NCBI RefSeq assembly: GCF_000003815.2
Contig: NC_049995.1
Span: 12,166,061 to 12,230,060, forward strand
DNA: 64,000 nt
DNA from: Branchiostoma floridae
Taxonomy: Eukaryota > Chordata > Leptocardii > Amphioxiformes > Branchiostomatidae
Reading direction: 5' to 3'
The notes beneath the pieces were generated by a model. The model searched no databases. It saw only the letters and a program-made list of their open reading frames with translations, and was not told the origin of the DNA. The position numbers and the translations under genes are program-made. Shown here piece by piece: positions 25,715 through 45,873 of this stretch (its first letter is position 1; each line of letters starts with the position of its first letter).

Positions 25715-25735
25715 TCTTGAAGCGATACAAATGCT

Positions 25736-25741
25736 TTTATT
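25736..25741 (-). terminator. Candidate poly(A) signal, minus mosaic gene
   Basis: AATAAA on the minus strand, about 260 bases beyond the stop codon of the minus mosaic gene. Position only; no cleavage evidence. Confidence 0.4.
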
Positions 25742-25999
25742 ACAGTAAACTCTCTTCATATTGGATACTGAGTATGTGACATGTGTGTTTTATCCAGGTA
25801 ACGTCCTATTTTACTTCAGCCAAATGGATTGACCGGACGGATGAAATGGATTCCTTGGAGTTTGACCCTTTTTTTAATGATTATAAACATGACCCTTAAG
25901 CTTGTGACTGTCTGGTGGAGAAAAAAAATTCTAAGATTGAAATTGAAGTTAGTGCATTTTAACATGCTTTCCTATCGAGGACTGATTGCGGTATCAGCC

Positions 26000-28900
26000 C
26001 TACAGGTTCGGGTGGCAGGCGTAGCCAAACCCACGGACCGTACAGGACCAGCCGTCTTTACACGACTCTGGACCGCAAACAGATCGGTTACGATTTCTGC
26101 TGCTCACATTCAAAGCTGTGGATATACAGAAACACAGGTCAGTTTGAGGCAAACCAAAGTGGATATTAGACCGTTTGATCATAGAAAAGTTAAGTGTTTG
26201 AATTGAAGGATAAATGTATCTATCATGCACAACATTCAAGTTTGACATTGAAAGACACTTAGTGTCCTTATTACGCATTTCAGGTAACTTTGTTCAACTG
26301 TATTGTAATATTAATCTCCAAGCAGATCCTACAATGGCATAAGATAGTACCAAACTGGCTAAGGAGTGTAGTCAGCCAAGAGGTGTACATTTGCCATGTA
26401 AAATAATTAGCACATGGCTACAGGGTGGGGCAGCAACACCATTGTTGAATAGATCTAGAACTGCTCCTCCCTGTTTCAGTGAAGGCAGATCCCCGGTAGC
26501 CAAACACACTCCTAAGCCGGCTTCACTCCTCTGCCAGCTTTTGATACTATCTTATGCTACCGTAGGATCTGCTTGGTAGCCTAAAAAAATTACAAGAAAA
26601 AAAGATTATTCCTACCCACCGACCCTAATTTTTTCAGGACTAGTACTGAAACAGGAAATACAACATTGTTTTCCCTGGGCCTAGTCGAACACGGCAAAAA
26701 TTCCATTGACATAAGTATCAGTTAGATAAGCGACTAGGGTTGCATCATATCAGCTGAGGTTTAAAAGAATACCTTGAGGAAGGCAGGCGTAGTAACCGGG
26801 ATGATTCACGCACACATAGCCAGAGTTGCAGATGACTGTGTCGCACTCGTTCTTGTCTGGTATTGGAGAATCGTAATGACATTAATTAGATATACTTAAT
26901 ACATATTTCAAATTTACTCAATAAGTGAACATTGCAGCCTACTTTAACTCACCTGAATTCAACACCGCATTCAAAATCATTCAAAAGGTTTGTTTGCTAT
27001 CTTTTACCCTTTGAGAATTGTGGTACCCTTGCAATAGACTTTTTTTTACCAATAACATCATCCACATGGTAGATAGATAGCTTGATCTGTTTACCTCATT
27101 CTGAATGAACGCTGGTGGTCTTTCTGTCTTGTATAAAACGAAAACTTGGAAGTGAACTAAAACGTCAAAGTGACATTGAGTACTCCTACATTCTTTTGAA
27201 TGCGTAATAACATATCAACAAACCTGTAACAACGAATAAAAAACAAGGCTTAGTCAATCGGAAAAAAGTACGTTTTCTCAAGATACACGCAGTACGTCTT
27301 TTTGCGTTAAAAAGAAAGAGTGATTGGTTACCTGTTTCACAGTCATTTCCTTCCCATCCAGCCACGCATGCGCAGGTGTAAGAATCGGCCACGTCCGTGC
27401 AGGTCGCACCATGTAGACAAGGGGAAGAAGCACAGCCGACTTGCATATCTAGTTTTAAAAGTGGAGTAACACGACAGTAATTATTCTCTGGATGACTGAA
27501 GCTTAACAATTGAAACGTTTTAGACAGTGTTGGTGAATTAGATAATGGGTGTTTCCGTAAATAATTTCATCAGGTTGGTAAATACTCATATAATAAAGTT
27601 CTTCCAACACAACCAAGATGGTACTCACTTCCGACGTTTCGGTGTCTATCAGACACCATCATCAGGGTAAGAATGGCTGGATCTACCTCTCACTGCTACT
27701 TATAGCCGGTAGATCCAGCGGTTATGAACAGAGATGTGGGGGGATACAAACTGAGTCACGTTTGGGACAGCATTCTCACTGCTGCAGCGCCACCTACATG
27801 GGCTATAAGTAAAAGTGAGAATAAGATCCAGCCATTCTAACCCTGATGATGATGTTTGGTGACACTGAAACGTCGAAAGTGAGTACTATTATCTTTGGTG
27901 TGTTGGAAGAACTACTATATATATATATAATGGATGTTTGCTTACTCAAAGCACAGTTGTGTCCTCCCCATCCAGTCGCGCATGCGCACGAATAAGAGTT
28001 GGGCATGTCCGTGCAAACCCCGCCATTCAGACAAGGTGTGGAGGCGCACTCATCGACATCTGTAGGAGATAACAGACATTCATATCAGGGACAAAGTATC
28101 TGTATACATAGAATACAACACGGGGTAGTCCGGGGACGATCCGACCCACGGGAGGGCCGGGACCAAGAGCGATACGGAACACCCCGTGTTGTATTTTATT
28201 CATATCATGCAAATTTAAAGAAAGTCAAGTTTATCACAAAACAAGAGCAAACTTTTTACATTAATGTACATCACATCAGCAACTTATCCGTCTATTCGAC
28301 CAGAAGAACGAATTTTTCGTGACTGTAACCTATAAGGAACAACAAGATATTTTACCTGTGCATCTTACTCGAAGTCTAGGAAATGGCACCCATTGACTGC
28401 CGTCATACACCTCCCACACAGCCTCGGTCTGCTCAGGGTAGAGATGGATGTCGTTTGTCAGTAGACCACCCGAACTACCCCCCATTACATTGCCGACTAT
28501 CCATACATCGTAGGGTTCATAGAAGTAGAGGAAGTCATTGGTGGTGTCGCTGGAATACACGGGGCGGCCTTCGTTGATCTGGCTGGTCAGACTGTAGGTG
28601 GTCATGCGGTTTACTTGGTGGTGGACAGATCCAGAGATGGTGATTTGGCGACACTCTGCGAAGAGAACAAACTTAAACGTCTTAGCAAAGTATGTTACTT
28701 CGTGAATGTATTAGAAACTTGACCCATGTGTCTGAGATTAACAGAAAGTCATGAAATTTATTCGTAATTTCGAATGGATTTTCAGGCTTATGTGCTTGTA
28801 TCATATGCATGTTTACGCAGACATTCCTTTAAACAGGGCACACATTACCCAGTATGTAATCATAAATCCTTTAAGGTGAACTATTAAGCTGTTGAAGTTT

Positions 28901-31900
28901 TATTTCAATCTTCAAGCAGATCCTACGGTGACATAAGATAGTATCAAAAGCCGATGAAAGAGTGTTTATAGTAGTGTTTATTTGTTTATTTATTAGTCAC
29001 CCTAAGCCACTAGCCTGATCAAATCTCGCTTATATCAGCCTGCCTGACCAACATCCGCCGGCCTCCTAGAAGTGGAGAGGGTCCAGTTGCATCCCCGGAC
29101 AGCAGAGTTTGTGTTCCACAGACTACCCGGTGGCTAATGGACACATCTTGGCCGGCTACACTCCCTGACAAGCTTTCACTATCTCTATCTTATGCCACCG
29201 ATAAATATGCCTGGAGATTATTGTACTTGCTCCACATACCTGCACATGATGCTTTAACCGCAGGGAACGATACAGCAGAACCTGCCACAGCGAGTCGCCA
29301 TGTGCCTCGGATTTTATCCGGACTCATGGCGTTGTCGATAACATACATCCGGGCAGTGTTGCTCCCCACATAAGCTCCGACCATCCACATGGAGTTTTCG
29401 CCATGGTAGTACAGAAAGTAAGGATTCGAGTCACTCGAGTACACAGGACGTCCACTGTACACCTGGTGAGTCAGCGTGTAGTGGGTCATGTGCTCAATTT
29501 GTGCGGTAGTGGAGCCAGAAATGATGATGTGTGTGCAAGCTGTAAACAGAATCGGTAGGTTATAATCACAGTCATGCCTTCAAGTACCAGAGTTACCAGA
29601 CTTACCAACCTAGGATTGATGTGTTCAAAAATTCGTATTTCCCCAGAGCTATCGTAAAGTGGAATATGTTATGACCAGGCACAGTATACGTAGGGGCATC
29701 TTCTCTGGATAGTTTTAAAGAACACTTGCAGATAGATGTGTAAAAATTAGGTGTGACGGGTCGTTCAGTGTAATATAACCAGCTGCTGCCGCGCCGCGTG
29801 CCCGCGAAGCTGGTGTGTTACGCCGAAGGTATGTTATATTGATAAAGATACAGCTGTCATACAGGTTGTGACATTCATAAATCTCTTGTGCAGCTGGCGA
29901 GTCACCTTCTTTAGACTTGACGTACAGATTCAAAGCAATTTTTAAAAGAAAAAAAAAACTTTGCCTTAAGCTTATTTTGCAGTTGTCATCATTTGTGCTT
30001 CCTATTCTGCAGATATAATAATATGTAGAGGTATTTAAGCTGTTTGTATAGTCTTTGACTGAAATAATCAAATTTTGAAAGAAGTATACACACATTATCG
30101 TGCAATGTAAACACATACCTGATAAAGGTTACGAACCATAAATAAAACTAACCTGCGGTGCAGCAAACATCAGACGGTTCAAGTTCGAGTTGACTTGCTT
30201 CTGGACGGCAGCCTACAAAATAAGAACAAAGGGACACGACTATGAAGAAGTCATCAAATGATTAATTTTTTCATCCCTTCCACAGTTTAGTACCATTATA
30301 GTGATGCTTAGATAAAGATAGAGACACACAGATGTCTACTTAGACTGGTACCCGTAACTAACATAAAGGTTGTCCGATCTTAGAAGGCATACGACCCACC
30401 CTATGACATATTGACAATCAATCTGAGTAATTATCCATTCTAAAGTTTAGTGCGCTGTGCACATGTGATGGGGACTTACCTAGATCTGCCGGAAACAGGT
30501 CGTACTTTTTGTCCGCCCCCATGCGGTAGGAACCGGCATGACCGTTATACCAGTTGACTTGCCACCAGCCGGGATTGCTGGAACTCCCGGTCACTTGACC
30601 CAAATCAGCGGCCTGGTGAAGGAAACATGACCTTTACTAGGTGAATTGCACATTTATTATTACCTTTGCCAGAATGGCTAAGGTTATGTTTTGGGCTTGT
30701 GAGTCTGTGTGTCTGTGTGTCTGTGTGTCTGTCTGTTAACAGCATAACTCAAGAAGTCTTGGATGGATCCCGATAATATTTGGTAGGTGGGTAGGGGTCG
30801 GGAAAACGAAGGTCAAGTTCGATAATGGGCCCCCTAGCGGCTTGCTAAGGTACTGCAGCGGAAACTCAATTTTTTATATCTCGTGTTCTGGACATGCTGT
30901 GGTCATGATTTTTGAGTGGCAGATAGCCCACGGGGCAGAGAGTATGTGCTGTGAGTTTGGGCCCCCTAGCGGCTTTTTTGGTACTGCAGGCGCCGGTTTC
31001 CTTTCAAACTTTGGACGAGAATAACTCTGCAACGTGTTGACGGATCGTCATGATTTTTGGTATGTAGATAGAATGAGTGATGACTTACATAATGGTATAC
31101 TAATTATGCAAATCAACAGCTAATTTTCATAATTAATGAGGAAAATTTATAAAACCACTGCATTCCATGATAGGACTTTAAAACTTGTCCCATATGTAGC
31201 TGGGAAGGAGAGAAATGTCGATAGATATCAATTATGCAAATAATGGCCTCATTTGCATAATTAATGAGAAAATATGAACATGTTGGCGGATCATCATGCT
31301 TTTTGGTATGTTTTATATGTGGATAGACTAAGTGAAGACGTTCATAATAAGATGCTAATTAGGCAAATTAACAGCTAATTTGCATAATCAATGTGGGAAG
31401 TTTATAAATCTAATGTCTCTCCTTACCTCTGCTCGGGCGTATCTTATTGACAGCTGCAGGTGCCAGGCAAGTAGATCAAGCTAGCAGGCTGACCCAGCCT
31501 TGCCCCCTGCCCCCTGGGTGCCAATCACTTTTACCGACTAGAGTAGACTTATGTTGACGGAAAACTGGGGAGGATAGGTTGATCCCATGTGTTTTAAACT
31601 TCTGCAGTTTTGTTAATAGTTATTTCCATGACAAATGGAGATATAGTTTGGAGTGTGCCTGTGTGTTTGTGTTTCCGGGTCATCTTCCACCTGCAATGTG
31701 ACCTTACAGTACCAACGTCCTTGCTACTCTCGAGTATCAGGTTGCTCAGAGCCACTGTTATCAAGATAACGTCAGGCCAGTCCAATTCAATGTTTTGGTT
31801 GACAGATTCTATTTTTCTGAATTTCAGAAAAATTGTATCTCAGCTCTAGACTACCAAAATGAAATCGTCTTAGCACAAGCATTTGCTTGCAGTCTTGCAC

Positions 31901-33867
31901 TCATAGAGGTGTGACTTAATCAAATAACATATATGATTATATGTAATGAGTAGCATACTTATGTCTACAGACATCTTTCTACATAACAAACCTGGTTCAT
32001 TTGGCAAAGGTATGATTTCGTCGAACTCTAGTTTAGAACTTATTATGTAGGTATTCCAAACTCTTGTAGGTGATCATAGCTCTGTGCTCATCTGCGCATA
32101 TTTACCTCCATGAAATGTCATGGAATGGAGGTTATATTTTCTGTTACGTGTCTCTGTCTGTGTAGATGATTACTCAAGAACGGCTGGATGGATTGGTTTC
32201 ATACTTGTTGTGTTGGTGGGGTGTGATGAAAGCTCGAATCGATGAGATTTTGGGCGCCGTATCTGTCGTTATAATTGATGTAATAATATCAAAAATCACC
32301 CCTATATGTGAGATATATTGGTACAGGCATCGTGCTTTATGTGTTTGTTAATGGGCTTAGCTCCAAGCAGATGGTGACAGCTGTTTGGGGGTGTCTCTGT
32401 CTGTATACAAGATTACTCAAGAATGGCTGGATGGATTGGTTTCATACTTGTTGTGTTGGTGAGGTGTAATGAAAGCTCGAATCGATGAGATTTGGGGCGC
32501 CGTATCTGTCGTTATAATCGATGTAATAATATCAAAAATCACCCCTATATCTGCGATATATTGGAACAGGCATCATGCTTTAAGTGTTTGTTAATGGGCT
32601 TTGCTCCAAGCAGATACCCATAACAGTAATATCCATTACTCTTAAATACAACCGACCATCAACATACATAACATCCACAAAAAGCAATGAATATTTCATG
32701 GAGGTATGAGGTCCCCGAACTCTAGTTATATTTGTATATACTGCACTCACAGACTACATAGACGAGATAGAGACTATAGAAAAACAAAAACAACTTCCAA
32801 CAAGAAAATATGTTATATCGTTATCTACCATGATGAGGTATAATTATATATAGTTCCACTTGTCAACAAATCTAGAAGTACTGCATTGTAAAAATTGGTG
32901 CTTATAAATGATACTAGAACACAACTTGATTGACATGCATGTTTCGCCGCGTTAACACTCTATACCCGTATTGCTGACTTGGTACTGAACATAGCACCAT
33001 CTTCCTGCTTTAGTTACACGTGCCTTTACCCAACAACATTGGAGTAATCACGTGCGTAATTGCAAGATTCTATTCTAGTATTTGCTTTTATGGAAACGTT
33101 CTTGTCCTTTATTTGTTTCCAAATTAAAACGTCTGCTTGGGCCGTCTTACACGTGACATGCAATCCTTAGTGTGCCAGTTAACGAGAGAGGGTTGAGAAG
33201 GAAGTGCGCACCCCGGGCCCTCCTTCACCTTAAAAAAGTCACATGCAGGCCAGGCAGACAGCGACTAACTGTCTGCCTACCATTGCCTTCCAAGACAGAT
33301 GGATGCCAACAACAAAACATAACTGGTCACACGCCGAGCATTTTGCCTACAGCATAAAAAAACTGACATTACCTGGTCATCGGTGATGCTGATGCCAGGA
33401 TCCACACTCATGCCTGGCCGCATCAGATCAGCCAGCTGCTGGCATGTCTGTACCGCTGGGCAGAGAATAGTCTTTTGGTGTCATATATAAGTATTTGCTA
33501 ACGTCTCATTCTAATAAAGAAGGCAAATGAAATCTAAGCGTAAAGATTCGTCCTCAGTCAGAGGCCGCCAGCTTCATGTGGCTGAACAGGTATATTAAAA
33601 GGCATTTCTTTCTTGTCAATTGTCCTTAACACGTCGCACTCATGTGGAACTGTATACGTTGGAAGCCAAACACTAGTTTCTGCTAAGTTAAAAAACGCCT
33701 TGAAATGCAATTTATCTACTGCTAGAGAGATCAGAATGTGTACTAACGACACAACTTAAATTGCCCGCTATAGTGTAAGAAGTAGTAGTTGGTAACTTAC
33801 GTCGTGCGGCATGTACCCCGCACACACAGCACAGCGCCAACGTGACCGCGCACAGCATGTTTGCCAT
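26000..33867 (-). CDS. Secreted mosaic protein: MIB/HERC2-like, two unnamed modules, EGFs (457 aa)
   Basis: Ten exons read in frame: 33801-33867 (ATG at 33865-33867), 33373-33455, 30480-30612, 30153-30212, 29240-29539, 28356-28655, 27946-28059, 27332-27448, 26773-26856, 26000-26115 (TAG at 26000-26002). They sum to 1374 nt, 457 residues plus stop. Order: signal peptide ([13 protein letters not shown], cleavage likely after residue 20); a MIB/HERC2-like segment about 33-90 ending in [20 protein letters not shown]; a Cys-containing linker; two ~100-aa modules (115-214, 215-314) each on a 300-nt exon; two EGF domains (315-391, the first starting DVDEC, calcium-binding type); and two four-Cys units with spacing C-x4-C-x5-C-x8-C (392-457). 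Each junction has AG/GT. No enzyme domain is present, so a secreted adhesion or binding role is only an inference. It is the inverted paralogue of the gene at 34760-45641 but lacks the protease. Confidence 0.78.
26314..26580. mobile_element. Fold-back MITE, AAGCAGATCCTAC family
   Basis: The left end CCAAGCAGATCCTAC..GGCATAAGATAGTA is mirrored at the right end (..TACTATCTTATGC..GTAGGATCTGCTTGG). The inverted ends are about 45 bp. It lies in the last intron of the minus mosaic gene. Further copies or fragments lie at 28905-29221, 41667-41712 and, by internal homology, 46390-46680. Confidence 0.7.
27598..27912. mobile_element. Fold-back MITE, ACGTTTC family (315 bp)
   Basis: Perfect 13-bp ends GTTCTTCCAACAC / GTGTTGGAAGAAC, with inner similarity continuing about 120 bp on each side (GACGTTTCGGTGTC..ATCATCAGGGT..AGAATGGCTGGATC). 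It lies between two EGF exons of the minus mosaic gene. Confidence 0.8.
28098..28205. repeat. Fold-back repeat, AATACAACACGGGG
   Basis: GAATACAACACGGGG at the left is mirrored by CCCCGTGTTGTATTTTATTC at the right, with a GC-rich loop. Probably a small MITE. It lies in the intron between module 2 and the first EGF exon of the minus gene. Confidence 0.6.
28356..28655 (-). CDS. Module 2 exon (~100-aa unnamed domain), minus copy
   Basis: A 300-nt exon, phase 1-1, with [36 protein letters not shown], a LYPEQ..AVW block and a terminal C. It is closer to the plus-strand module 2 than to module 1, so the two modules had separated before the inverted duplication. Confidence 0.75.
28905..29221. mobile_element. 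AAGCAGATCCTAC-family MITE ending 20 bp from an exon
   Basis: Left end TTCAAGCAGATCCTACGG..CATAAGATAGTA; right end ATCTTATGCC..CTGGAGATTA. The right end stops about 20 bp before the donor of the module-1 exon (29240). The interior shares CTAGCCTGAT and CAGACTA words with 46462-46560. Confidence 0.6.
29240..29539 (-). CDS. Module 1 exon (~100-aa unnamed domain), minus copy
   Basis: A 300-nt exon, phase 1-1. Conserved landmarks: C at the start, [39 protein letters not shown], a SPD.IRGTWRL block and a C near the end. It is 300 nt in all four occurrences in this window (here, 28356-28655, 37027-37326, 41354-41653). I know of similar unnamed modules in marine invertebrate proteins but cannot give a family name. 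Confidence 0.75.
30657..31430. mobile_element. Interspersed repeat, TTTGCCAGAATGG family
   Basis: It begins ACCTTTGCCAGAATGGC followed by a GTGTGTCT run. It contains two similar blocks about 260 bp apart (around 31070-31140 and 31330-31395, each with an ATGAT..TTTTGGTATGT word, a CTAATT.GCAAAT word and AACAGCTAATTT). Non-coding. It lies in the long second intron of the minus mosaic gene and has no counterpart in the plus copy, so it inserted after the duplication. Confidence 0.55.
32103..32706. mobile_element. MITE with 14-bp ends and two internal tandem units (604 bp)
   Basis: TACCTCCATGAAAT at 32103-32116 is exactly inverted at 32693-32706. Inside are two tandem units about 243 bp apart (starting near 32149 and 32392), each with TGTCTCTGTCTGT, ACTCAAGAA.GGCTGGATGG, GCTCGAATCGATGAG and GCTCCAAGCAGAT. 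The plus paralogue continues without interruption at the matching intron position, so the insertion is specific to this arm. Confidence 0.8.
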
Positions 33868-33974
33868 CACTCTGACATGTATGCATGTATGCTACCACTG
33901 CCTCTTAGAGCTACATCTCCTGACTTTATATTTAACACCCAGTGACTCAGGTCTCTGCCAGGTGGCCTGCTTCC
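33786..33974 (-). repeat. Left arm of near-identical promoter/exon-1 inverted repeat
   Basis: 189 bp that match 34661-34841 in reverse complement, with one 8-bp insertion (an extra CATACATG) and two substitutions. It covers the TGACTCA and TATA elements, the 5' leader, the whole signal-peptide exon and the first 15 bp of intron 1. Confidence 0.9.
33924..33930 (-). promoter_or_regulatory. TATA box of minus mosaic gene
   Basis: TATAAAG on the minus strand, about 57 bp upstream of the ATG, conserved exactly in the opposite arm. A TGAGTCA (AP-1/TRE type) lies at 33943-33949, about 12 bp further upstream. Confidence 0.6.
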
Positions 33975-34660
33975 CTGCAAATAGCTTTATTTAAAATGTT
34001 GTTGTTTGATATCTGAAGGTAGTTTAATCAGATCATCCGGAAAGATGTGGCTTATCAGCAAAAAAATACGCGAATCCCACCTGCGCGAATTACCAGAAGA
34101 CAAGTGTTTATATTCTCATCAGTTCAGAAATAGAATATGTCACGATCTTAGCATGAAAGTTCATCTGTGTTGGTAAATTACAATTATCAGGGTCAATGTA
34201 ATTTGATAGGGCCATGTTGATTTCATTACATGGATGACATTCGCGCGCGCATCAGTTTTCGACCATATTGTAAATCGTACAAGGCACCTGTAAAATGAGC
34301 AAATATATAGTGTAGATTGAAAAAAAAGTATCGGAAAATAGATAGTTAATGTCATAGAATGCCCAAAATAAATATAAAATCAAAGAATAAGATGTGAAAG
34401 ACCAAAAATGAAAAATCTTTTGTCAGTAGGGAACGGTAAGAGATCCCGGCCACTACTATCGCCCGACCCAACCTCTGATTGGAGAATAGGTTTCACTTGC
34501 CACGCGCATAGCTTGAGGGTCGAGTTGTATTCTATTTTTGAGCTGTTGGGAATAAACGCACCTTGTTTTACTGATAAGACACATCTTTCCGGACGATTAC
34601 TAAATAACCGACGGATCAACAAAAAACATCTTAAAAACAACTATAATAAGCTTTTCGCGT
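33975..34660. promoter_or_regulatory. Divergent intergenic spacer of the inverted pair
   Basis: About 690 bp between the two near-identical promoter arms. Similarity between the two sides fades quickly inward (AAAGCTT/AGCTTT-type words remain). It should hold the shared upstream control region of both genes. The open frames here on both strands look like chance. Confidence 0.5.
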
Positions 34661-34685
34661 GGAAGCAGGCCACCTGGCAGAGACC

Positions 34686-34692
34686 TGAGTCA
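34686..34692 (+). promoter_or_regulatory. TGAGTCA (AP-1/TRE-type) site
   Basis: A perfect TGAGTCA 12 bp upstream of the TATA box and present in both arms. AP-1/bZIP binding is a known meaning of this word; use here is inferred. Confidence 0.45.
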
Positions 34693-34704
34693 CTGGGTGT
34701 TAAA

Positions 34705-34711
34705 TATAAAG
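34705..34711 (+). promoter_or_regulatory. TATA box of plus mosaic gene
   Basis: TATAAAG in the context TTAAATATAAAGTCAGG, 48 bp before the ATG at 34760. Identical in the other arm. Confidence 0.6.
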
Positions 34712-34759
34712 TCAGGAGATGTAGCTCCTAGAGGCAGTGGTAGCATACATGTCAGAGTG

Positions 34760-37700
34760 ATGGCAAACATGCTGTGCGCGGTCACGTTGGCGCTGTGCTG
34801 TGTGTGCGGGGTACATGCCGCACGACGTAAGTTACCAACTACGATGTCTATAATGTTTTTATGCTATAGAGGACCATATAGCGGGCAATTTTTACTTTGA
34901 TCTGTCAAGCCGTAGATACATACCTTTCACGGCGTTTTAGAACTTAGCAAAAACTAGTATTTTGCTTCAAAAATATATTTCAACAAGCATCACGGCATTG
35001 TTCATATCAATGTTGCACTCGACGGTAGCTAGCTAACAAACTTGTCTTAGTTTACCAAAGGTCTTACAATGATATCCGAATAACCCTGTCAAGAGCAAAC
35101 ATGAGCAATGTATCAACTTTGATATCGTGCAATGTCGTATGTGAACCTAGAAATTACAAAGTTCCAAAAGTATGCTTACAGCTTTTGGCGTATAAATAAA
35201 ATTGGTTAAGATTTATTCCTCGCTATCACCAATTCCGTCTACAACTGCCCTTGTATTGAAAGCCTGGTGCGGTTATGAATTCAAGGAGAAAAAAGGACCA
35301 ACAGCCAAATGGATAAGAAAGAAACGCATTTTCAGCCACGGACTAAGGACGAATCGTTACGATTAGATTTAGTTAGTAATTACTTCCTGTATAAGAAGGT
35401 GGCGTTAGAAAATACAGTTGTAATGTGGTATGGGGGACAGAGACGTTCGGAAGGAGAGAGTGGACGTGGTCCGGGCAAGCAGCCCGCGACGATGATGAAT
35501 ATGACACCAAAACACTGTTCTCTGCCCAGCGGTACAGACATGCCAGCAGCTGGCTGATCTGATGCGAGTAAACCTGAATGTGGATCGTGGCCTGAGCATC
35601 ACCGATGACCAGGTAATGTCAGATGCATACATGTCTGGGCGCAGACAAACTGCTCGTGTGACAACTCTGTTTTAATTTTGGAACAAAAGACATGTAGTAA
35701 GTATCCTTCATGTATCCTTCATAAGTATGACAAGAAAAGATAAAGCAAATACTGGAATAGTATCCTGCAATTGCACTTGATAATTACTCCAATGTTGTTC
35801 TGATGGGTATAGAGTGTTTACTCGGCGAAACATGCATGTCAATCAAATGAAAGCTTTATAGCTCCAATATAAGTATCATAAGCACTACCTTTTATTACAA
35901 TACAGTACTTCTAGATTAGTCGACAAGTGGAACTATATCATTATGCCTCATCATATGGTAGATCACGATATTACATATTTTCTTGTTGGAGATTTTTTTT
36001 AATGTTTGGTTTACAAGAATCGTGTGGTATTTTTTAGTCTCTATCTCATCTATGTTATTTGTGTCTATGGGGGCTGTATATACAAATATGGCACATGAGC
36101 ATAGAGCCATGATCACCTACAAGAGTTTGGAATACCTACACATAGACACATTACAAGTAAGTAGTGTTCACTAGGAGGTCAAGGGATAGGTGAGATGAGG
36201 TGAGAGATTGTTAAATGTATCCATAACTAAATACATGTGCGAACAGCCTAGTAAAGATCCTGTTCCCTCCGCCACGCCGCTGATCTGGGCACCGTGGCGG
36301 GCAGCTCGAGCAATCCCGGCTGGTGGCAAGTCAACTGGTATAACGGTCATGCCGGTTCCTACCGCATGGGGGCGGACAAAAAGTACGACCTGTTTCCGGC
36401 AGACCTAGGTAAGTTCCCATCACAGGCACAAAAAAACTTTAGACTTAGTAATCACTCAGATAGACTGTAAATATGTCATTGGGTGGGTCATATGCTCGGA
36501 CGAACCTTATGTTAGTTACGTGAAGTTACCAGCCAAGGGAATCGAAATCTGTATCTATCTCTATCTAAGCATCACTACGCTAAGTGACTGTGGAAGGAAG
36601 AAAAAAATTAATCAGTTAATGACTTCTTCACAGTCTTGTCCCTTTGTTCTTATTTTGTAGGCTGCCGTCCAGAAGCAAGTCAACTCGAACTTGAACCGTC
36701 TGATGTCTGCTGCACCGCAGGTTAGTTTTATTTATGGTTTGTTATCTCTATCCTAAAAGGTTTGTATACGTCTTTCAAAAGCTGATTATAATTATTCCAG
36801 TCAAAGAGTATACAAACAGCTCAAATACATGTACCTCTACATATGATTATGTCCGCAGAACACGAGGGTAAATCGTAACGAAGCACAAATGATGACAACT
36901 GCAAAATATCTTAAAGGCAAACTTATTTTTTTATTTTGAAATTACTTTGGATCTGTACGTAACGGTAAACCCTAAAGAAGGTGACTCGCTGAACAAGATG
37001 TCACAACTTACCGATTATGTTCACAGCTTGCACACACATCATCATTTCTGGCTCCACCACCGCACAAACTGATCGGATGACCCACTACACGCTGACTCAC
37101 CAGGTGTACAGTGGACGTCCCGTATACACCAGCGACTCGAGATCTGACTTTCTGTACTACCATGGTGACTTCAACATGTGGATGGTCGGACCCTATGTGG
37201 GGAGCGCCACTACCGGGATGTATGTGAGTGACAGAGCCATGAGTCCGGATCAAATCCGAGGCATATGGCGACTCGCAGTGGGCAGTGTGGCTACTTTCTT
37301 CCCCTCTGTAAAAGCATCATGTGCAGGTATGTGGAGCAATATGGATGACAAAAGAGAAGAATTTGGCCAAATAGGGACAAATACGTTGTCATGGGACCTC
37401 GGTCAGTTATTCTGCAGTCTATCCGGCTATCACGCCAGTCCGTCAGTTCACTGATAGGCGAACTAACTCCTACTAGTCTTTTATTTCTAACTTATCCAAA
37501 GTCTCCTATTTGGACGTATACAGCATGAGTCTGAAACTCACCTGCCTAGTAGGCTTGCTACTTGTCGCACTTTCCAGCGCCTTGAGTTGCAGAAATCATC
37601 AGTCAGAACCACCTCTCATCGGTCGTTTCGTCCCCTAATCTGAGACGGCCTCTAGGTGGGGGGACAGCAGGGCGAACGTCTTCACTCTGCTTCTCTGCAA

Positions 37701-40700
37701 CTCTTGAACTGACTACTACTCCTTGGTTCCCCACTTCTGGTCTTTCCTCTTGACCCACAGCCAAAAGCTGCATCTCTCCACTTCTTCGGATAACGCCTTC
37801 ACTAACTGTTTGTGACTGAGTGAGAGTTCTCTACAGAGGCGTGTGATGGATGTTCCTACGAATCCCCTGCATCCTACCTCTACTGGGTATAACAACGCCC
37901 TCCAACTGTTCTCTACACACTGTTGTACTAGGTCTTGATATTTGAGCTTTTTCCTCTCAAACGCAGCCTGAACANNNNNNNNNNNNNNNNNNNNNNNNNN
38001 NNNNNNNNNNNNNNNNNNNNNNNNNNNNNNNNNNNNNNNNNNNNNNNNNNNNNNNNNNNNNNNNNNNNNNNNNNNNNNNNNNNNNNNNNNNNNNNNNNNN
38101 NNNNNNNNNNNNNNNNNNNNNNNNNNNNNNNNNNNNNNNNNNNNNNNNNNNNNNNNNNNNNNNNNNNNNNNNNNNNNNNNNNNNNNNNNNNNNNNNNNNN
38201 NNNNNNNNNNNNNNNNNNNNNNNNNNNNNNNNNNNNNNNNNNNNNNNNNNNNNNNNNNNNNNNNNNNNNNNNNNNNNNNNNNNNNNNNNNNNNNNNNNNN
38301 NNNNNNNNNNNNNNNNNNNNNNNNNNNNNNNNNNNNNNNNNNNNNNNNNNNNNNNNNNNNNNNNNNNNNNNNNNNNNNNTCCTTTGAGTACATCTGCTTA
38401 GGTTCTTGGACATGGGAGAATATCGTAGGCTGCCCTTATAAGAAAACTTAATCTGTGGTCTGGTTTGTCCCACATGTTTTTCCACGTTAACTTTCTGTCC
38501 ACTGTGCTCTCCCAGTTAATCCAGGCTCCCTGCTGGTGTTGACCAACAACCTTTACTTTCCTCTCTTCTTCCATCATTCTCTTCACCTCATCCACTACCA
38601 GTTGTTTCTTTTCTCGCTGGGTGGCCTTGTCCCATCTCAGGGTTCTCTCGCCCCATCCAAGACCACACCTCCCCTGCTGTACAGCTCCTACTATATCTCT
38701 ATGCTTGAGCCTGCTGACAGCTTGGTCGATCACTCCGTCTGGATTCCACTTTCTCCCTGTTTTCTGCCCTCTGTAGGCTGCTCTAACTGCGTTGTCCTGC
38801 GACCACTTCAGCTCTAAAGCCGTCCGCACTTTCTCCAACTTGTATTCCTCTGTAATGGAGGTAATCGGAAGGGTCAGTTTGTTCCTCCCGGCTAATGCGG
38901 TCCTAGACAGACAACGTGGAACCCCCAACCACTTCCTTACGAACGAGTTTGCTTTTCCTTCGACTTGGTCGGCTGTTGAGAGGGGTATATCATACATCTT
39001 CATGGGCCATTTGAGTCTTGGTATCAGGACACTCTGTAGACACCACACTTTCAGTTTGCCCGGTAGCTCACACTTGTCTATCGCCCTTAGGCCTTCCACT
39101 GCTTGTTTCACCAGCTCTTGTCCTCGCTTGGTGTCAGCTATGTCGCTTGTGTAAAGCCGTCCCAGGCTTTTAACAGGTTCCTGTTGGATTGTGGGAATGT
39201 CTTGGTTATTTATTGAGAAAACTCTGTTGCTGATTTTCCCTTTCCTTAGTGACAGACTTCTGGATTTGCTGGGTTTAAATCTCATCCGCGCCCAATCTGT
39301 TAACTCTTCTAACCTCTGCAGTACTCGTCTGGTACACGGGGCAGTCCTAAGAATGCTGGTTACATCATCCATAAAAGCCCTGAGTGGCGGAAGTCTTTGT
39401 CCTGAAGGCAGTTTTATTCCACCTGCCGCTTGCCTTGCACCTATGAGGAATATTTCAAAACCCAGAACAAAAAGGAGAGGTGAGATGGTGCAACCCATTG
39501 CTATTCCCTTTTCCAACTGTTGCCATCCTGTAGTGAACTGTGGTGTGGTTACACTAACTCTGAAGTCCTGGAAGTAGTTCTGAATCATGGTTCTAATGGT
39601 CTCTGGCACCCAGAAGAAGTTCAGTGCATAATGGATTACGCTGTGCGGTACTGCCCCATATGCATTGGTGAGATCTAACCACACTACGTGCAAGTCCTCC
39701 TTTTGGCGTCTTGCCATCTGAATCTGTTGCCAAATCGTGCTTGCATGTTCGATGCATCCAGGAAAGGCTGGAACCCCTGGCTTCTGGACTTCAGTGTCAA
39801 TGTNNNNNNNNNNNNNNNNNNNNNNNNNNNNNNNNNNNNNNNNNNNNNNNNNNNNNNNNNNNNNNNNNNNNNNNNNNNNNNNNNNNNNNNNNNNNNNNNN
39901 NNNTTGGCGAGCAGGTAGGTTATCATCCGCTTTGTTAAGATGGAGAAGAACAGCTTTCCCTCTACATTCAACAGTGATATATTTCGGAACTGCTTGATGT
40001 CTGTAGAAACTTTCTCCTTTGGGATCAGTACTCCTCCTGCTCTTCTCCAAGCACTAGGGATACACTGTTTCTTCCATGCAACTCTAAAAAGCTTCCAGAG
40101 CAGTCTCACAACCTTTGGACACTTCTTGTATATCTGATAGGACACACCGTTTGGCCCTGGTGCTGAACCAGCCCTCGCTTTCTTGACAGCCGTCTCCAAC
40201 TCGCTCCACCTGGGGAGGGATACATCAAAGGGTATTTCGGGTTCAGTTGGTCTGGGTACGTAACCTGGCGACCCCAACTCTTCATCTCTCTGGGGATCGC
40301 TGTACGTTTGTTTGAGATGCAACTCCAAATCTTCCCTAGAAATCTGAAGAGAGCCTCCCTTCTTTTCCTCAAGCAAGTTTCTAGCAAACTTGTATGGGTT
40401 TTTGAAGAATTGGTTTCTCTCTTTTGCTTTCCTTTTACGCTTCCTTCTGAGTCTCTCGGCTCTCCTAAGGCTTTTCAACTTCGATTTAATCTCTTCCCAT
40501 AACGGCTCTAGACCTTCCTTCTCTTCTTGCTTTGCTTTACGCCATCTCTTCCTCAACTGGCGACGTCTGCGGACCAATATTGCAATCTCTCTCTCTCTGC
40601 GACTCGTCTGTTTTTCGCGGGCCTCTTTTCCCTCCTTCTTGTACGTGCCGAACCTTTCGCTGCAGTAACTGTACACTAAGTTGCCGAACTGGTTAAGTTT

Positions 40701-43700
40701 CCTCTCTACGTCGCCTTTCAGCCCCTGCTCGAGGATCTGATGTAAATCGTCATCTAACTTCTCCCATTCCTCCTTGTTGTTCGCCCTTGGCCACTTAATT
40801 TTCTCTTTCCTCTCTGGGGCTGGTTCTTGTGGACTAGGAGTTGCCCCTGCTACTACTACTATTACTATAAGCCAGGCGGGAGTCTGGTAGAGACTATAGC
40901 ATTAACTTCCCAATGCAGCCTAGTTCGTGTAGGCCGTGTAATATTTACAATCTAGTAATTTGCAGAGCCTGTTATTTCATCCTTTTATATAGCCTGGGTA
41001 CCATCCGGATAGTAGTCGCTCCTTATAATGTTTGCTTCTGTAGAGAAGCGACTGTATATAGTGTATGATAAAAGTCGGAGCAAGAAGCGACTGTATACAG
41101 TGTATAATAAACGTCGGATCAAACTACTATCCGAATGGTACTCAGGCTTCCTTGTACAGTCTTCATGTAAGGAAAAAAAGATATTCTAAAAACTAATTTC
41201 AAATATCGAATAGATTTGTATTACTTTGTGCTTGCGTCTGGTGAATCACAGACACATACTCCACTTGTGACAAGTCACGTGAATTGCATTATCTATAAAG
41301 TGATTCATGAGGACGATTTTTGTTAAGGTTTAAGTTTTATTCATCTTTTTCAGAGTGTCGTCAAATCACTATCTCTGGATCCAGCCACTCTCAAGAGGCC
41401 GCCATGACCACCTACAGTCTGACTGACGCCATCAGTGATGACCGCCCCGTGTACTCTAGTGACACGTCACCAGACTTTCTCTACTTCTACGAACCCTTCG
41501 ATGAGTGGATGGTTGGCCCTACTGTTGGGAGCGGTTTCCGTGGTCTAACGACAGACGACATCCACCTCTACCCTGAACAGATCGAGGCTGTGTGGAAACT
41601 GTGGGACGGGAGTGCGTGGGTGCCATTTCCCAGAGTTCTAGCAGAATGCACCGGTATGCTTGGCAAGCTTTGATACTACTAAGTATTTTGTAGGATCTGC
41701 TTGGAGATTAGTTAATGACCTATCTGTTCTTCGGTGCATATTGTGTCATAACGCCTGGTCCTTTGCTGTAAGCACCTAATGAATAACTTGTCCCTAATAT
41801 GAATATCTCTAAACTTCTACAGATATCGATGACTGCGCCTCCACTCCTTGTCTGAATGGCGGAGTTTGCACCGACCAGCACAACTCCTACTCGTGCTCAT
41901 GTGCGGCTGGATGGCAAGGAGACAACTGTGAAATAAGTATATGTAAGTAAACAACCAGTAGACAACAGACGCTATCTACAGTATCTACAGCTTCATTGTG
42001 CATTGTGCAAATCCCCCTAGCTTTTTTTTTTGACAAACACAATGAACAGTTAGGCTTAACGCTTCATTCTAAGGACTGCAACCCTTTCCATTCGCGTGCA
42101 AGTCGAGTGAGCTACACAGCTGGAATTTGAACTCACGGCTTTTTGGTTCACAGGCAGGGTCACTAACAAATTGACTACGCATATTTTCAAAGTGTTCATG
42201 CAGACATATAATCAATGTGTTACTGTTGTCTTCAGAAGCATTTTTTTAGTCCATTTATGTTTCTTCCATTACATTTTTCAAACAAGCTTTACAGGTCAAC
42301 TGTGCTTCGACTCCTTGCCAACATGGCGGGGTTTGCACGGACGTGGCCGATTCGTACACCTGCACATGCACCGCTGGATGGGAAGGGAACGAGTGTGAAG
42401 TGGGTGAGTAATAACCTTTTGTCGTATACCAATGCTGTGATCAATGGGAAATGTACTTAGTCTAACAGTTGACCAATTATCTTACTTTCTGCGAACTAAA
42501 GTTTCTGCGTTATTCTTAGGCTCATTGTTGTCGAGCCGTGCAGGATATACTAGTTTCGTCTGTACTCCTATGGAAACCAACTGGCTGGTTACATTATATT
42601 GCTCTATGGACATTTTAACGAGAGACTAGTGGTATCGTTTACGTGAACTTAGAACAAGCAATGTCTAAGATAGGGCTGTATGGAGTATCAATTATGTACT
42701 TAAGCCTAGTCCAGACCTCTGGTCGATAATGTATGTATTTTAGGCTCAGTTTCCTACTACTTAATGCCTTTTCATCACTTCCACACCAGATAAGAATGAG
42801 TGTGACACAGTCATCTGCAACTCCGGCTATGAGTGCGTGAATCATCCTGGTTACTACGTCTGTCTTCCATATGGTAATATATGATTATCATCTGGAGAAA
42901 CATTTTCGGTTATTACTGCATCTCTTATGTGTTAATGATTTTAACAAACATATAAATCCATGTTTATCAAGGTAAAATCTGTGTCAAGTGAAATGTATTT
43001 TCCTCAAAGATTACGTCTGCTATGTTGGAAGCTCTTTTTTAATTAAGAATTTAACCACATGTAGATCTATTGAATTTGAAAAACATTAACTACAGGTGGT
43101 ATCTCACTGCATTTGAGGCACCGATGCGGGTGCGGTACTGCGGGGTTCGTTCACTGCGGCACTGTTGTGTTTTGGTCGATTTTCTTACAATTTAGATATT
43201 GCGTAATACGTAAAAGCATAACTTAGAAGACAACAAAATACACAAAACGTAAGAAAATTCGTTTTATATCTCTGAAATTCGTTGAGTAATCTTTTGAACC
43301 CCGCAGTGCCGCACTGGTGTCCCAAGTTCAGTGAGATACCACCTTTACCGATCTGCTTGCTGTTACGTTCCACCACTTGAAGGTTTCAACGGAACAGCGT
43401 CCACTTCTGACGAGTGCGGGATCCCCTCGATTCCGCCCGCTGCCACTGGGAAGATCCATGGAGGTGTCGAGTCGACTGCCTTCTCCTGGCCTTGGCAGGT
43501 CAGCCTTCGTCTGGTCAACGCTGGCGGGATCCACGTCTGTGGCGGCTCGCTCATCTCCGACCAGTGGGTCCTTACAGCAGCACACTGTTTGGACGAGTAA
43601 GTGCTACCTGAACTATTTTTCGAACATCCGTGAATAGGTTCATCCGGTTGGTACGTCACTGAATAAAGATACTCTTTTTACACAACCATTGCTTTATTCT

Positions 43701-45641
43701 CACCAACGTTTCGGTCAGTTCTCTGGACGATTCTAACAGGTTCACATTGTACTGCAGGGCAGGTGTCACTGCTCATAGTTCAGATGTGATCATAATGTGA
43801 ACCAATCAGAATTGCCCTGAAGAAGATGGTGGTCACCGAAACGTTGGTGAGAATAAAGCAATGGTTGTGTAAAAAGAGTCTCTTTATTCTATTTTTCAAA
43901 CAAGTGTTTGTGACTATGATTAATTAACTTAACTCTGCTTCAATATCGATGCATCAGTCCCCACGGCTAGCATTTTGATATTGAAAGGTAAGCTCTTTGT
44001 TGGGAAGTGACGGAAGTCGGAAGCAGTGTCTCTTGGTCTTAGCAAAGTGTTGGTGAGGCTCTGAATGTGTGTTACAAGAAATGAATGTAAATGAGGGCTT
44101 AACAGGAACACAAAAATCATAAAACAATACGTTATCAGCAAAGTTATCAACATCAAAATGCCGGCCGAAAAAGGATGTTGAAGATACCTGTGTCCAAACA
44201 CTATAGGGCTAATCAAATTTTCATTTTGAACTCCAGAGGGAATGAGCACACAACCCACTGGAAAGTCAAGCTCGGGCTCCACGATGTGGACGGTACGGCT
44301 GAACAGCAGAGACAAGTCATCAAGCTCATCATGCACGAGCAGTTCTCTGCCGTCCCTCACACGTACAACGACGTCGCCCTGCTGAAACTGGACCATCCCG
44401 TGACCATCACACAGAAGGTCAGCCCTATCTGCTTGCCGACCGGCCCGACGCCAATCAATACTGATTGCTACATAACCGGCTGGGGTGCCACTGCGCTCGA
44501 TTCACAAGGTGATTTTCTTAAGGTGCACTCTCACTGCACTTGCATCAAGCTTGCGTCACTGCGTCACTGTTTTGTTATTTTCTCCATTGTTTTATAATTT
44601 AGATATTGCGTAATATCTAAAAGTATGACTTAGAAGATGACAAAATACACAAAAGGTAAGGGAGGAGTCATGCAGGGTGAGAGTTTGTCGGCCTGGTTCT
44701 CACCCTGCATTACTCATTTCCAGAGTCCTTATGTAAGGTCCTCGTCGGGAATACCTGCCTTGGCTGCCGAACAAATTCTCTGCCAGTCCTGCTAAAAGAT
44801 CCTAAAAGTCTGGCTTCCAGGGTAACAGTGTACTTGTTATATTATTATCGTAAAAATATCAAACTGTTCTCCAAAACTGGGGGTCAATATAGGCGACTTC
44901 TTAAAACTTTTGACCCATTGCTGACGTCACACACGAGACAAATCACGAGTTCAGAGCAATATTAGGTCAGCAATTTGAATAATGAAACCGTATGACATTG
45001 TCAGGAGACAACAGACTGTATTGCATCGACATGCACTGCTAGTTATAGCCTGCTAAAGGGTTTTTGGGATCATCTATCTTTAACAAGATTTTTCCATATA
45101 CCACGTCTTAACTTTCTAAAGGTGACAACATAATGGCGACAACATTGCAGCAAACCCGAGTATCGATCAAGGACGACAGCTACTGTTCCGCTCATTGGAT
45201 AATCAGCTATTACCCAGAGAGCATGCTCTGTGCCGAACAAGCGGGAGTAAGTGGTTGTGAGGTATGTCGTTATACTTGTGGGGCACAAAGGGAATTTTGA
45301 GCAAAGTCTGTAAAAAAGGGACAATTCTCTTTAACTCTGATACACACATGTCATGGTGACTCTATATGAATGTGTTTGTCCAGTGAGACCGAGTGTCCAT
45401 GTGGGTCTATATGAATGTGTTGTGAGACGTTCTTATCCCATATTTCCGATGTTACGTCTGTGATTTGCAGGGAGATTCTGGAGGCCCTATGGCCTGTCCA
45501 TCTGCTGACCTGTCCACCTGGGAACTGACCGGTATAATCAGTTGGGGTGAGAATCCGTGTGGCGCCCACGTCAAACCGGGGATCTTCACCAGGGTACACA
45601 GCTTCGTGGGCTGGATCAACGACAAAATGGCCACCAACTGA
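34760..45641 (+). CDS. Secreted mosaic serine protease: MIB/HERC2-like, two modules, EGFs, chymotrypsin-like (684 aa)
   Basis: Thirteen exons: 34760-34826, 35530-35612, 36276-36408, 36661-36720, 37027-37326, 41354-41653, 41823-41936, 42287-42403, 42790-42873, 43383-43596, 44237-44508, 45122-45261, 45471-45641 (TGA). Sum 2055 nt, in frame. The first nine match the minus paralogue exon for exon in length and phase. The last four encode an S1 protease: activation site GK|IHGG at about 443/444, catalytic His487 (TAAHC), Asp536 (NDVALL), Ser631 (GDSGGP). The residue equivalent to chymotrypsin 189 is Ser (VSGCEGDSGG), which predicts chymotrypsin-like rather than trypsin-like cleavage. It should be a secreted zymogen. 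Problem: the acceptor of the third exon reads CCAC instead of CCAG, with no in-phase substitute nearby that keeps the MIB/HERC2-like segment, so the normal transcript may be impaired. Intron 5 carries a retrotransposon with an assembly gap. Confidence 0.72.
36276..36408 (+). CDS. MIB/HERC2-like exon with lost splice acceptor
   Basis: The 133-nt frame is intact and almost identical at protein level to the minus exon 30480-30612 ([20 protein letters not shown] then [12 protein letters not shown]). The NPGWW..V.W.NG..SYRMG...KYDL pattern fits the MIB/HERC2 domain, otherwise typical of intracellular ubiquitin ligases. At the 5' edge the minus copy has CACCAG before GCCGCTGAT; this copy has CGCCAC before GCCGCTGAT, so the invariant AG is gone. 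Skipping the exon would shift the frame. Confidence 0.65.
37027..37326 (+). CDS. Module 1 exon, plus copy
   Basis: 300 nt, phase 1-1. It carries [59 protein letters not shown] and a final C. It matches 29240-29539 closely. Confidence 0.78.
37975..38379. other. Assembly gap (405 N)
   Basis: Run of N inside the retrotransposon, at the expected position of its endonuclease-like region. Reading frames that cross it mean nothing. Confidence 1.
39804..39903. other. Assembly gap (100 N)
   Basis: Exactly 100 N, a conventional placeholder, inside the reverse transcriptase between the FRNISLLN and GCIEHAS motifs. The frame changes across it, so the true length is not 100. Confidence 1.
40991..41148. 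mobile_element. Fold-back MITE with internal tandem pair
   Basis: The left end AGCCTGGGTACCATCCGG is mirrored at the right end (CCGAATGGTACTCAGGCT). Inside is a tandem pair of about 39 bp starting AGAAGCGACTGTATA. It lies between the retrotransposon and the module-2 exon of the protease gene. Confidence 0.75.
41354..41653 (+). CDS. Module 2 exon, plus copy
   Basis: 300 nt, phase 1-1, with [62 protein letters not shown] and a final C. Fourteen bases into the next intron a fragment of the AAGCAGATCCTAC MITE begins (about 41667-41712). Confidence 0.78.
41823..42873 (+). CDS. EGF exons (three) of the plus mosaic gene
   Basis: Exon 41823-41936 encodes a calcium-binding-type EGF ([21 protein letters not shown]-like pattern ending CEI). 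Exon 42287-42403 encodes a second EGF ([27 protein letters not shown]). Its in-phase acceptor is AACAAG|CTTT, while a second AG eight bases later would break the frame. Exon 42790-42873 encodes a short four-Cys unit, [20 protein letters not shown]. All are phase 1-1. Confidence 0.75.
42060..42175 (-). repeat. Possible tRNA-derived SINE remnant
   Basis: On the minus strand the words GTGAGTTCAAATTCC (B-box-like) and a preceding ACCCTGCCTGTGAACC look like a degraded tRNA head. No full cloverleaf could be drawn by eye. Confidence 0.25.
43094..43344. mobile_element. Fold-back MITE, GGTGGTATCTCACTG family (251 bp)
   Basis: AGGTGGTATCTCACTG at 43094-43109 is exactly inverted at 43329-43344, with inner similarity including GTGCGG.ACTGCGGGGTTC. 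It ends only 38 bp before the first protease exon (43383). A decayed relative lies at about 44519-44660 in a later intron of the same gene (shared AATTTAGATATTGCGTAATA and ACAAAATACACAAAA). Confidence 0.8.
43383..45641 (+). CDS. Chymotrypsin-like protease domain exons
   Basis: Four exons: 43383-43596 (linker, activation site, catalytic His), 44237-44508 (catalytic Asp, GWGAT), 45122-45261 (to VSGCE) and 45471-45641 (GDSGGP to the stop). Inside the third exon, GGA is followed by GTAAGT at a codon boundary. Use of that donor would keep the frame but remove VSGCE, including the Cys that pairs in the S1 pocket. The minus paralogue has no match to any of these exons. Confidence 0.75.
43661..43889. 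mobile_element. Fold-back MITE, CAACGTTTCGGT family (229 bp)
   Basis: Inverted ends of about 60-75 bp: left GAATAAAGATACTCTTTTTA, then ACACAACCATTGC and CACCAACGTTTCGGT; the right end is the mirror image with few changes. It lies between the first two protease exons. The ACGTTTCGGT core is shared with the MITE at 27598. Confidence 0.8.
44670..44710. repeat. Perfect 13-bp hairpin
   Basis: ATGCAGGGTGAGA and TCTCACCCTGCAT are separated by 15 bp, in an intron of the protease gene right after a decayed MITE. Confidence 0.7.
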
Positions 45642-45656
45642 TCTAGCTGTTAACAC

Positions 45657-45847: not shown

Positions 45848-45867
45848 CATCCTCTGTTGAGTTCGTG

Positions 45868-45873
45868 AATAAA
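45868..45873 (+). terminator. Candidate poly(A) signal, plus mosaic gene
   Basis: AATAAA about 227 bp after the stop codon, just past the MITE in the 3' UTR. Another AATAAA is near 46113. Confidence 0.4.

Follow-up and report, generated by a model that had tools for sequence, protein, structure and literature searches.

Among the closest described parallels to the locus reported here is phase-1 exon shuffling onto S1 proteases, reportedly the subject of Patthy's work. The candidate chimera, which we call gene P, resembles those cases in its symmetric 1-1 exons, in the phase-1 intron through which the protease enters and in its overall plan, a predicted secreted mosaic with the protease at the C terminus. 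It departs from them in that the duplicate (gene M), an ancestral-type relative and a donor-like family are all found in one genome. The enzyme itself would be at home among the chymotrypsinogen- and prostasin-like S1 proteases: it has the full domain, the catalytic triad and an activation site, with cysteines where they are expected (by inspection). Unlike those proteases, however, it carries an arm of EGF units and of LD, our label for an unnamed 100-amino-acid domain encoded by each of two 300-nt exons. To our knowledge, neither LD nor the MIB/HERC2-like unit of the same gene is a unit of any described protease, and a limited search of the open-licence literature found no description of the M or P architecture.

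Lancelets are a contentious place to look for new domain combinations. Exon shuffling and domain gain in these animals were surveyed by Huang et al. 2014 (PMC4284660), whose estimate is that lancelets gain more than 10 new domain pairs per million years. The reply of Banyai and Patthy was that mistaken gene predictions may account for much of this gain (PMC4967905). Another lancelet system, the amphioxus VCBP cluster, shares with our locus inverted repeats, haplotype variation, suggested conversion and secreted gene products; it differs in encoding V and chitin-binding domains, and protease capture goes unmentioned in the available portion of that paper (PMC2632668).

The window (the whole 64,000-nucleotide stretch that was analysed, C17:12166061-12230060) contains two divergent genes. 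M runs on the minus strand from 33867 to 26000 and P on the plus strand from 34760 to 45641, so that their start codons, at 33867 and 34760, lie about 0.9 kb apart. Genome-wide searches covered 513 Mb in 431 contigs, including contig C3, which figures prominently below. The parts of the locus are as follows.

33922..33938, minus strand: TATA-like stretch upstream of M, identical to the P copy
33801..33867, minus strand: M exon 1, predicted signal peptide, 67 nt (gene model), zero differences from P exon 1
33373..33455, minus strand: M exon 2, 83 nt, AG/GT borders
30480..30612, minus strand: M exon 3, MIB/HERC2-like unit, 133 nt, AG acceptor; PF06701 at 26.9 bits, cut-off 33.5
30153..30212, minus strand: M exon 4, three Cys, 60 nt (gene model)
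29240..29539, minus strand: M exon 5, LD copy 1, 300 nt (gene model); no Pfam match up to E 0.1
28356..28655, minus strand: M exon 6, LD copy 2, 300 nt (gene model); no Pfam match up to E 0.1
27946..28059, minus strand: M exon 7, EGF (PF00008), 114 nt
27332..27448, minus strand: M exon 8, EGF, 117 nt (gene model)
26773..26856, minus strand: M exon 9, short four-Cys unit, 84 nt; EGF_CA at 20.0 bits, cut-off 27
26000..26115, minus strand: M terminal exon, four-Cys unit and stop, 116 nt (gene model), homologues on C3
34697..34713, plus strand: TATA-like stretch upstream of P, identical to the M copy
34760..34826, plus strand: P exon 1, predicted signal peptide, 67 nt (gene model)
35530..35612, plus strand: P exon 2, 83 nt (gene model)
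36276..36408, plus strand: P exon 3 homologue, MIB/HERC2-like, 133 nt; acceptor AC, as against AG in M and the C3 gene
36661..36720, plus strand: P exon 4, 60 nt (gene model)
37027..37326, plus strand: P exon 5, LD copy 1, 300 nt (gene model)
38380..40901, minus strand: reverse-transcriptase element within P intron 5, of approximate extent, adjoining and broken by N gaps 37975-38379 and 39804-39903
41354..41653, plus strand: P exon 6, LD copy 2, 300 nt (gene model)
41823..41942, plus strand: P exon 7, EGF, 120 nt, or 114 with the upstream donor (gene model)
42287..42403, plus strand: P exon 8, EGF, 117 nt (gene model)
42790..42873, plus strand: P exon 9, short four-Cys unit, 84 nt (gene model)
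43091..43347, no strand assigned: MITE-like element of a common family in P intron 9, bounded by terminal inverted repeats
43383..43596, plus strand: P exon 10, linker, activation site and His-bearing protease part, 214 nt; nearest relatives on C3
43661..43889, no strand assigned: second inverted-repeat element, in P intron 10, with 55-nt arms 98% complementary
44237..44508, plus strand: P exon 11, Asp-bearing protease part, 272 nt (prostasin alignment)
45122..45261, plus strand: P exon 12, 140 nt (gene model)
45471..45641, plus strand: P exon 13, Ser-bearing protease part and stop, 171 nt (gene model), AATAAA at 45868

The initial annotation had read the region as a head-to-head inverted duplication, and comparison of the window with its own opposite strand bears this out: nine inverted blocks of at least 60 nt pair 26778-34066 with 34563-42868 at 77.7 to 90.5% identity. 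The gene models likewise agree with its claim of nine exons equal in length and phase on the two strands (67, 83, 133, 60, 300, 300, 114, 117 and 84 nt), P exon 7 being 114 or 120 nt according to which of two in-frame donors is chosen. Exon 1 starts in phase 0, exon 2 in phase 1, exon 3 in phase 0 and exons 4 to 9 in phase 1. The intron similarity that it noted is real, but the intervals it quoted (32940-33060 with 35780-35860) only partly coincide with the block found in intron 2, 32786-32967 with 35805-36000. The TATA-like stretch upstream of M (33922-33938) is identical to its copy upstream of P (34697-34713). Beyond exon 9 the resemblance stops. The best local DNA score between the arms there is 27; 60 shuffles average 26.7 and reach 31 at most. 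M and P part in intron 9. The two endings are as the initial annotation described them, a four-Cys unit in M (the 116-nt exon with its stop) and a chymotrypsin-like domain in P. Absent from it were the AC acceptor of P exon 3, the identity runs in exons 1 to 5, the N gaps, the reverse-transcriptase element and a third gene.

What the shared arm is made of can be named only in part. The product of M has two EGF units above the Pfam cut-off; EGF-like matches score 52.4 and 46.1 bits against 21.5 for PF00008. Exon 3 and its homologues score 26.9 (M exon 3), 26.4, 23.2 and 22.5 bits against PF06701, below the cut-off of 33.5, so we term the unit MIB/HERC2-like and no more. A genome search with PF06701 returned eight matches, with the M, P and C3 exons not among them; exon 3 as the query matched M, P and C3 strongly and two of those eight places weakly (E 4.3e-4 and 7.4e-4). 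The two LD copies of M, searched on their own, had no Pfam match up to E 0.1, and an LD profile found nothing convincing in the PDB. Its predicted model is all-beta, of moderate confidence (pLDDT 74.6), and has no confident structural neighbour. LD is nonetheless a large family in this genome, with 61 exon matches (all 68 candidates scored) falling into 41 clusters, 20 of which hold at least two exons. When 16 LD loci of about 3.3 kb were scanned, a further exon of the present gene (exon 4) accompanied the LD exons only on C3.

The four-Cys units are harder still to place. By inspection, the cysteine spacing of the M terminal exon, C-x4-C-x5-C-x8-C, is that of exon 9. At the DNA level exon 9 and the terminal exon have no clear likeness, M exon 9 scoring 11 (6.2% of shuffles) and P exon 9 scoring 10 (20%). 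In Pfam up to E 10, exon 9 matched EGF_CA alone, below its cut-off, and the terminal exon matched nothing; the follistatin-type identity that we had suspected from the spacing was unlisted at that threshold, and we dropped it. Some 1.2 kb past the M stop, an open frame begins that by eye resembles another gene.

The four last exons of P (10 to 13) are a different matter, for together they encode what by sequence is an intact chymotrypsin-like (S1) protease domain. It matches PF00089 (Trypsin) over positions 1-220 of 220 with E 9.8e-57 and 192.7 bits, against a cut-off of 20.6. Aligned to prostasin, the catalytic His, Asp and Ser are all present, in TAAHC, NDVALL and GDSGGP. The translated exons also contain a GK-IHGG activation site, at which the precursor would be cut, and the ECG and PICLP cysteines, which would bond. 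Opposite the Asp of the prostasin specificity pocket (position 189, which bears on substrate preference) P has Ser, and the substitution suggests a chymotrypsin-like preference.

Was this domain gained by P or lost by M? The initial annotation had left both open, and the answer lies mostly on C3. The LD exons nearest to those of M and P outside the window are at C3:403328 and, adjoining it, C3:402188. They belong to a gene whose exons run from C3:406029 down to 397239 (within an examined stretch of C3:393000-408500) and whose exons 2, 3, 4, 5, 6, 7 and 9 measure 86, 130, 60, 300, 300, 114 and 84 nt, exons 2 and 3 being 3 nt off their M and P lengths. The comparison covered exon 2 onward, exon 1 having no model; exon 8 was unseen in the examined stretch, which has an assembly gap between exons 6 and 7. 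The last exon of this gene, 116 nt long, has four Cys and the stop, and the four protease exons found no match up to E 0.5 in the gene or in the 4.2 kb beyond, to C3:393000. Searched through the genome up to E 1, the terminal exon gave five matches. One is M; the other four all lie on C3, clearly at C3:397245 and C3:387895 and weakly at two further places (E 0.36 and 0.47). The second C3 gene, at C3:387895, again has exon 9 followed by the terminal exon. Since the first C3 gene has the same exon series, a four-Cys end and no protease match, the ancestral state was most likely the four-Cys end, for which P would have substituted the protease. Gain is thus the half of the earlier proposal that is supported; that it was recent is poorly supported, the M/P dS being 0.35 for all exons together and between 0.35 and 0.73 for exons 6 to 9. 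The initial annotation's description of the gene as adhesion-type is conjectural.

The relationships among the three genes are mostly, if untidily, in keeping with this. Summed over seven exons, informative DNA sites unite M and P 190 times, P and C3 75 times and M and C3 64 times, counts that assume an even rate and in which conversion between M and P inflates their agreement in exons 2-5. Outside the conversion zone, in exons 6, 7 and 9, the corresponding counts are 70, 43 and 44. M with P leads in six of the seven exons, narrowly in exon 7 (19 vs 16). Exon 6 is the dissenter, with 35 sites for M and C3, 28 for M and P and 25 for P and C3. Protein sites are closer: P and C3 share 10, M and C3 nine and M and P eight in exon 6, and in exon 7 P and C3 share eight vs five for M and P. 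A tree of 22 LD exons joins M and P in copy 1 (93/94) and M and C3, weakly, in copy 2 (86/75), with a bootstrap that had not converged.

M and P have drifted a long way apart, but not uniformly. Overall dS is 0.35 and dN 0.14. By exon, dS is 0, 0.085, 0.30, 0.075 and 0.29 in exons 1 to 5 and 0.58, 0.35, 0.73 and 0.50 in exons 6 to 9. In exon 2, amino-acid change exceeds silent change (dN 0.15, dS 0.085, from few sites). Reported heterozygosity in amphioxus is 3.2-4.2% (PMC12500494), and the Chinese lancelet has an SNP polymorphism of 4.39% (PMC4284660). M/P dS is roughly at least ten times the heterozygosity, a comparison of measures that differ in kind, and on that ground the two are paralogues and unlikely to be alleles.

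Superimposed on this divergence are long stretches of perfect identity. In the segments around exons 1 to 5 the longest identical runs are 100 (plus one of 67), 49, 95, 70 and 44 nt; none of 2000 column shuffles reached those of exons 1 to 4, and a fraction of 0.0035 reached that of exon 5. The intron-2 block and the exon 6 to 9 segments contain no identical run of 25 nt or more. Constraint is an unlikely explanation in exons 3 and 4, because their dS against C3 is 1.25 to 3.0 (few sites) and because several runs extend into the 5' flank or an intron. Long identical runs confined to the exons near the mirror axis instead point to gene conversion between M and P there. Their 44 to 100 nt are of the order of the allelic conversion tracts of B. 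floridae, which average 99 bp (PMC12500494).

Two blemishes in P need to be faced. One is exon 3, which is preceded by AC in P and by AG in M and the C3 gene. If the strong exon-3 donor is kept, the sole in-frame acceptor among those tested leaves an exon of 25 nt; 15 donor/acceptor pairs do preserve the frame, each with a donor other than the strong one or with exon 3 cut to 25 nt. P is therefore either damaged here or spliced in some other way, and the splicing drawn for exon 3 is probably wrong. The simplest solution would be to skip exons 2 and 3 together (216 nt), which leaves the frame intact and brings exon 4 directly after the signal peptide. The other blemish is in the assembly. N gaps at 37975-38379 and 39804-39903 both fall between P exons 5 and 6, so the link between these exons crosses two gaps and calls for caution, although each half is gap-free: 26000 to 37974 (M and P exons 1-5) and 39904 to the end of P. 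The reverse-transcriptase element sits among them. Its piece at 38398-39803 matches RVT_1 with E 3.2e-13; the piece past the second gap has no Pfam match, and its assignment to the element was made by eye. The gaps also coincide with the rise in divergence seen in exons 6 to 9.

Where might the protease have come from? Exon 10 has 71 matches in the genome (all 121 candidates scored), and the best outside the window, C3:20983164 and C3:20975373, are on the same strand and 67% identical to it. They belong to two neighbouring genes (C3:20.97-20.99 Mb) that by eye have LDL-receptor-A-like units ahead of the protease. Compared directly, these proteases are 69 and 71% identical to P in the first protease exon; the second, compared for the first gene, is 66% identical. 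By inspection, the donor after the first protease exon is the same as in P. They differ upstream, where P has LD and EGF units and the first of them has two LDL-receptor-A-like units at 19.9 and 16.9 bits, below the cut-off of 24.1. Near the start of that gene's protease exon, six of 10 AG sites, including the five nearest, would leave phase 1 and four phase 2. In P, exons 4-9 are symmetric 1-1 and exon 10 enters in phase 1, which places the junction in a phase-1 intron, as expected of exon shuffling; also as expected, relatives exist without the module (the C3 gene), as do relatives of the module elsewhere (the LDL-receptor-A-like proteases). With exon 10's nearest relatives in two neighbouring C3 genes, the comparison suggests that the P module came from the LDL-receptor-A-like protease family by phase-1 exon shuffling.

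Other LD genes were compared with protease exons by position alone: the 61 LD exons and 71 exon-10 matches come within 60 kb of each other only here, at four LD exons, of which only P's two share the strand of the protease. A genome search with the Trypsin profile gave at least 154 matches (150 of 368 candidates scored), and these were compared with LD positions by eye. We also considered that the duplicate had landed in front of an older local protease gene. The window has no LDL-receptor-A-like relic better than E 0.34, and neither protein found a match up to E 1e-3 in 200 kb of flank; on these results such a landing looks the same as a move of the protease exons, and we set it aside. The MITE-like element in intron 9 was rejected as the cause of the swap. 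A first look at its family gave 4065 genome candidates, and the 40 that were scored (its own place included) were all near full length at 84-100%; a family this common proves nothing, and its position in intron 9 is perhaps chance.

Four other accounts of the locus deserve a hearing. An unlikely one, though it must be taken seriously, is that we are looking at two neighbouring genes, that P ends at or soon after exon 9, that a separate protease begins with an unrecognised first exon and that the chimera is an artefact of annotation. Errors of this type are documented in lancelets, where ESTs argue against a Lectin_C/fn2 fusion (PMC4967905). If left unspliced, P exon 9 reads through to a stop after G-N-I, there are seven candidate first exons (including one of 22 residues at 42733), and the broken exon-3 acceptor would sit comfortably with such an error. 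Yet the stretch from exon 9 to exon 10 contains neither AATAAA nor ATTAAA, the acceptor of exon 10 is an AG that gives the correct phase, hydrophobicity among the seven candidates peaks at 2.08 vs 2.64 for the real signal peptide, and 42860-47500 has no relic of a terminal four-Cys exon better than E 0.20. The same AC acceptor might mark P as a decaying pseudogene, which we think improbable: all its other acceptors are AG and its donors GT, the frame is open and survives the skipping of exons 2 and 3, the catalytic residues are intact, and dN against C3 is no higher for P (0.22) than for M (0.25).

We regard mis-assembly as highly unlikely, whether the arms are alleles (the condition under which the initial annotation would have been overturned) or P exons 6-13 come from a different locus and were misjoined to this one across the retroelement. 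The two N gaps and the higher silent divergence beyond them invite the thought, and the VCBP locus of B. floridae did have artefactual duplicates in an early assembly (PMC2632668). Against it are the two gap-free halves, the second of which includes the junction of exons 9 and 10, and a dS of 0.35 to 0.73 in exons 6-9, far above a heterozygosity of 3.2-4.2%. An orphaned half is not evident either, since strong matches to exon 3 number just three genome-wide, those of M, P and C3, and what appears by eye to be one reverse-transcriptase element stands on both sides of the 100-N gap. As for an ancestral protease lost from M after the inversion, we find it scarcely credible. It would work with P branching outside M and C3, as exon 6 weakly hints, but M and P share the most DNA sites in the other six exons, if narrowly in exon 7, and their exons 9 are 89% alike and each 74% identical to that of the second C3 gene. 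In M and in both C3 genes, three genes in two locations, exon 9 is followed by the terminal exon, the best protease-exon match in 24000-26780 of M has E 0.29, and an apparent next gene starts about 1.2 kb past the M stop.

We therefore return to what we consider the probable history, a head-to-head duplication in which the terminal exon of P was replaced by a protease module, M kept the ancestral end and conversion followed. The ancestor would have been a secreted mosaic with a signal peptide, a MIB/HERC2-like unit, a Cys-rich exon, two LD units, EGF units, a four-Cys exon and a terminal four-Cys exon. Once it had duplicated head to head, P would have exchanged its terminal exon, through phase-1 intron 9, for a four-exon module from a relative of the LDL-receptor-A-like protease family, while M retained its four-Cys end. 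Near the mirror axis the arms would have gone on exchanging short tracts by conversion as the distal exons drifted apart. Given splicing across intron 9, the product of P would be a secreted zymogen, cleaved after the Lys of ATGK-IHGG. In chymotrypsinogen, the Cys1-Cys122 bond holds the A chain. By analogy, a bond of this type between the ECG and PICLP cysteines may tether the P protease to its LD/EGF arm. Because the protease would stay tied to it, the arm could direct the enzyme to a ligand that M binds without cutting, a shared ligand that we propose from the build of the two proteins alone. M would then be a non-enzymatic partner with a similar arm. One step further (and here we would bet against ourselves), the pair might be a two-product device in which mirrored, identical core promoters drive a recognition-only M and a recognition-plus-protease P, with conversion near the axis keeping promoters and N-terminal arms matched as the ends differ.

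Exon shuffling is a process already known in lancelets, and our chimera is still an unproven proposal drawn from genome sequence. What the locus offers is a compact test of the dispute over lancelet domain gain, with a gap-free junction between exons 9 and 10 at its centre. It also offers runs of 44 to 100 identical nt between inverted paralogues and an unnamed 100-amino-acid domain with 61 exon matches. Its value lies in having an ancestral-type gene, a candidate chimera and donor-like relatives together in one genome, a well-dissected case of a known process.

Introns of the inverted pair carry repetitive DNA, in M (the minus-strand gene with a four-Cys terminal exon) and in P, its plus-strand mirror copy with the S1 protease end:

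window 32148-32615, a 225-nt direct repeat, 94% identical, within intron 2 of M (from self-comparison of the window)
window 38380-40901, minus strand, reverse-transcriptase element, inside P intron 5

A 100-N gap divides the element in P intron 5; the piece preceding it matches RVT_1 (3.2e-13), and Pfam returned no match in the piece following it. Downstream of M, on the minus strand at about 24709-24784 of the window, an open frame sets in (MAGDEKQVRKRIVEKSDSKNGKKSK as read by eye) that resembles the 5' end of the gene that follows.

Elsewhere in the genome, on the contig C3, the reverse strand of C3:387700-389700 holds, from position 3 to about 500 of that stretch, an open frame with two repeats, each starting RRQYGC and finishing FPGKR, with basic sites on both sides. 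This frame, upstream of the C3 gene in which a four-Cys terminal exon accompanies exon 9, gives the impression of a neuropeptide precursor. On contig C9, five pairs of LD exons, which code for the 100-residue domain without a name found twice in each of M and P, lie in a 58-kb tandem array (C9:23398269-23456228), a local expansion of this domain.
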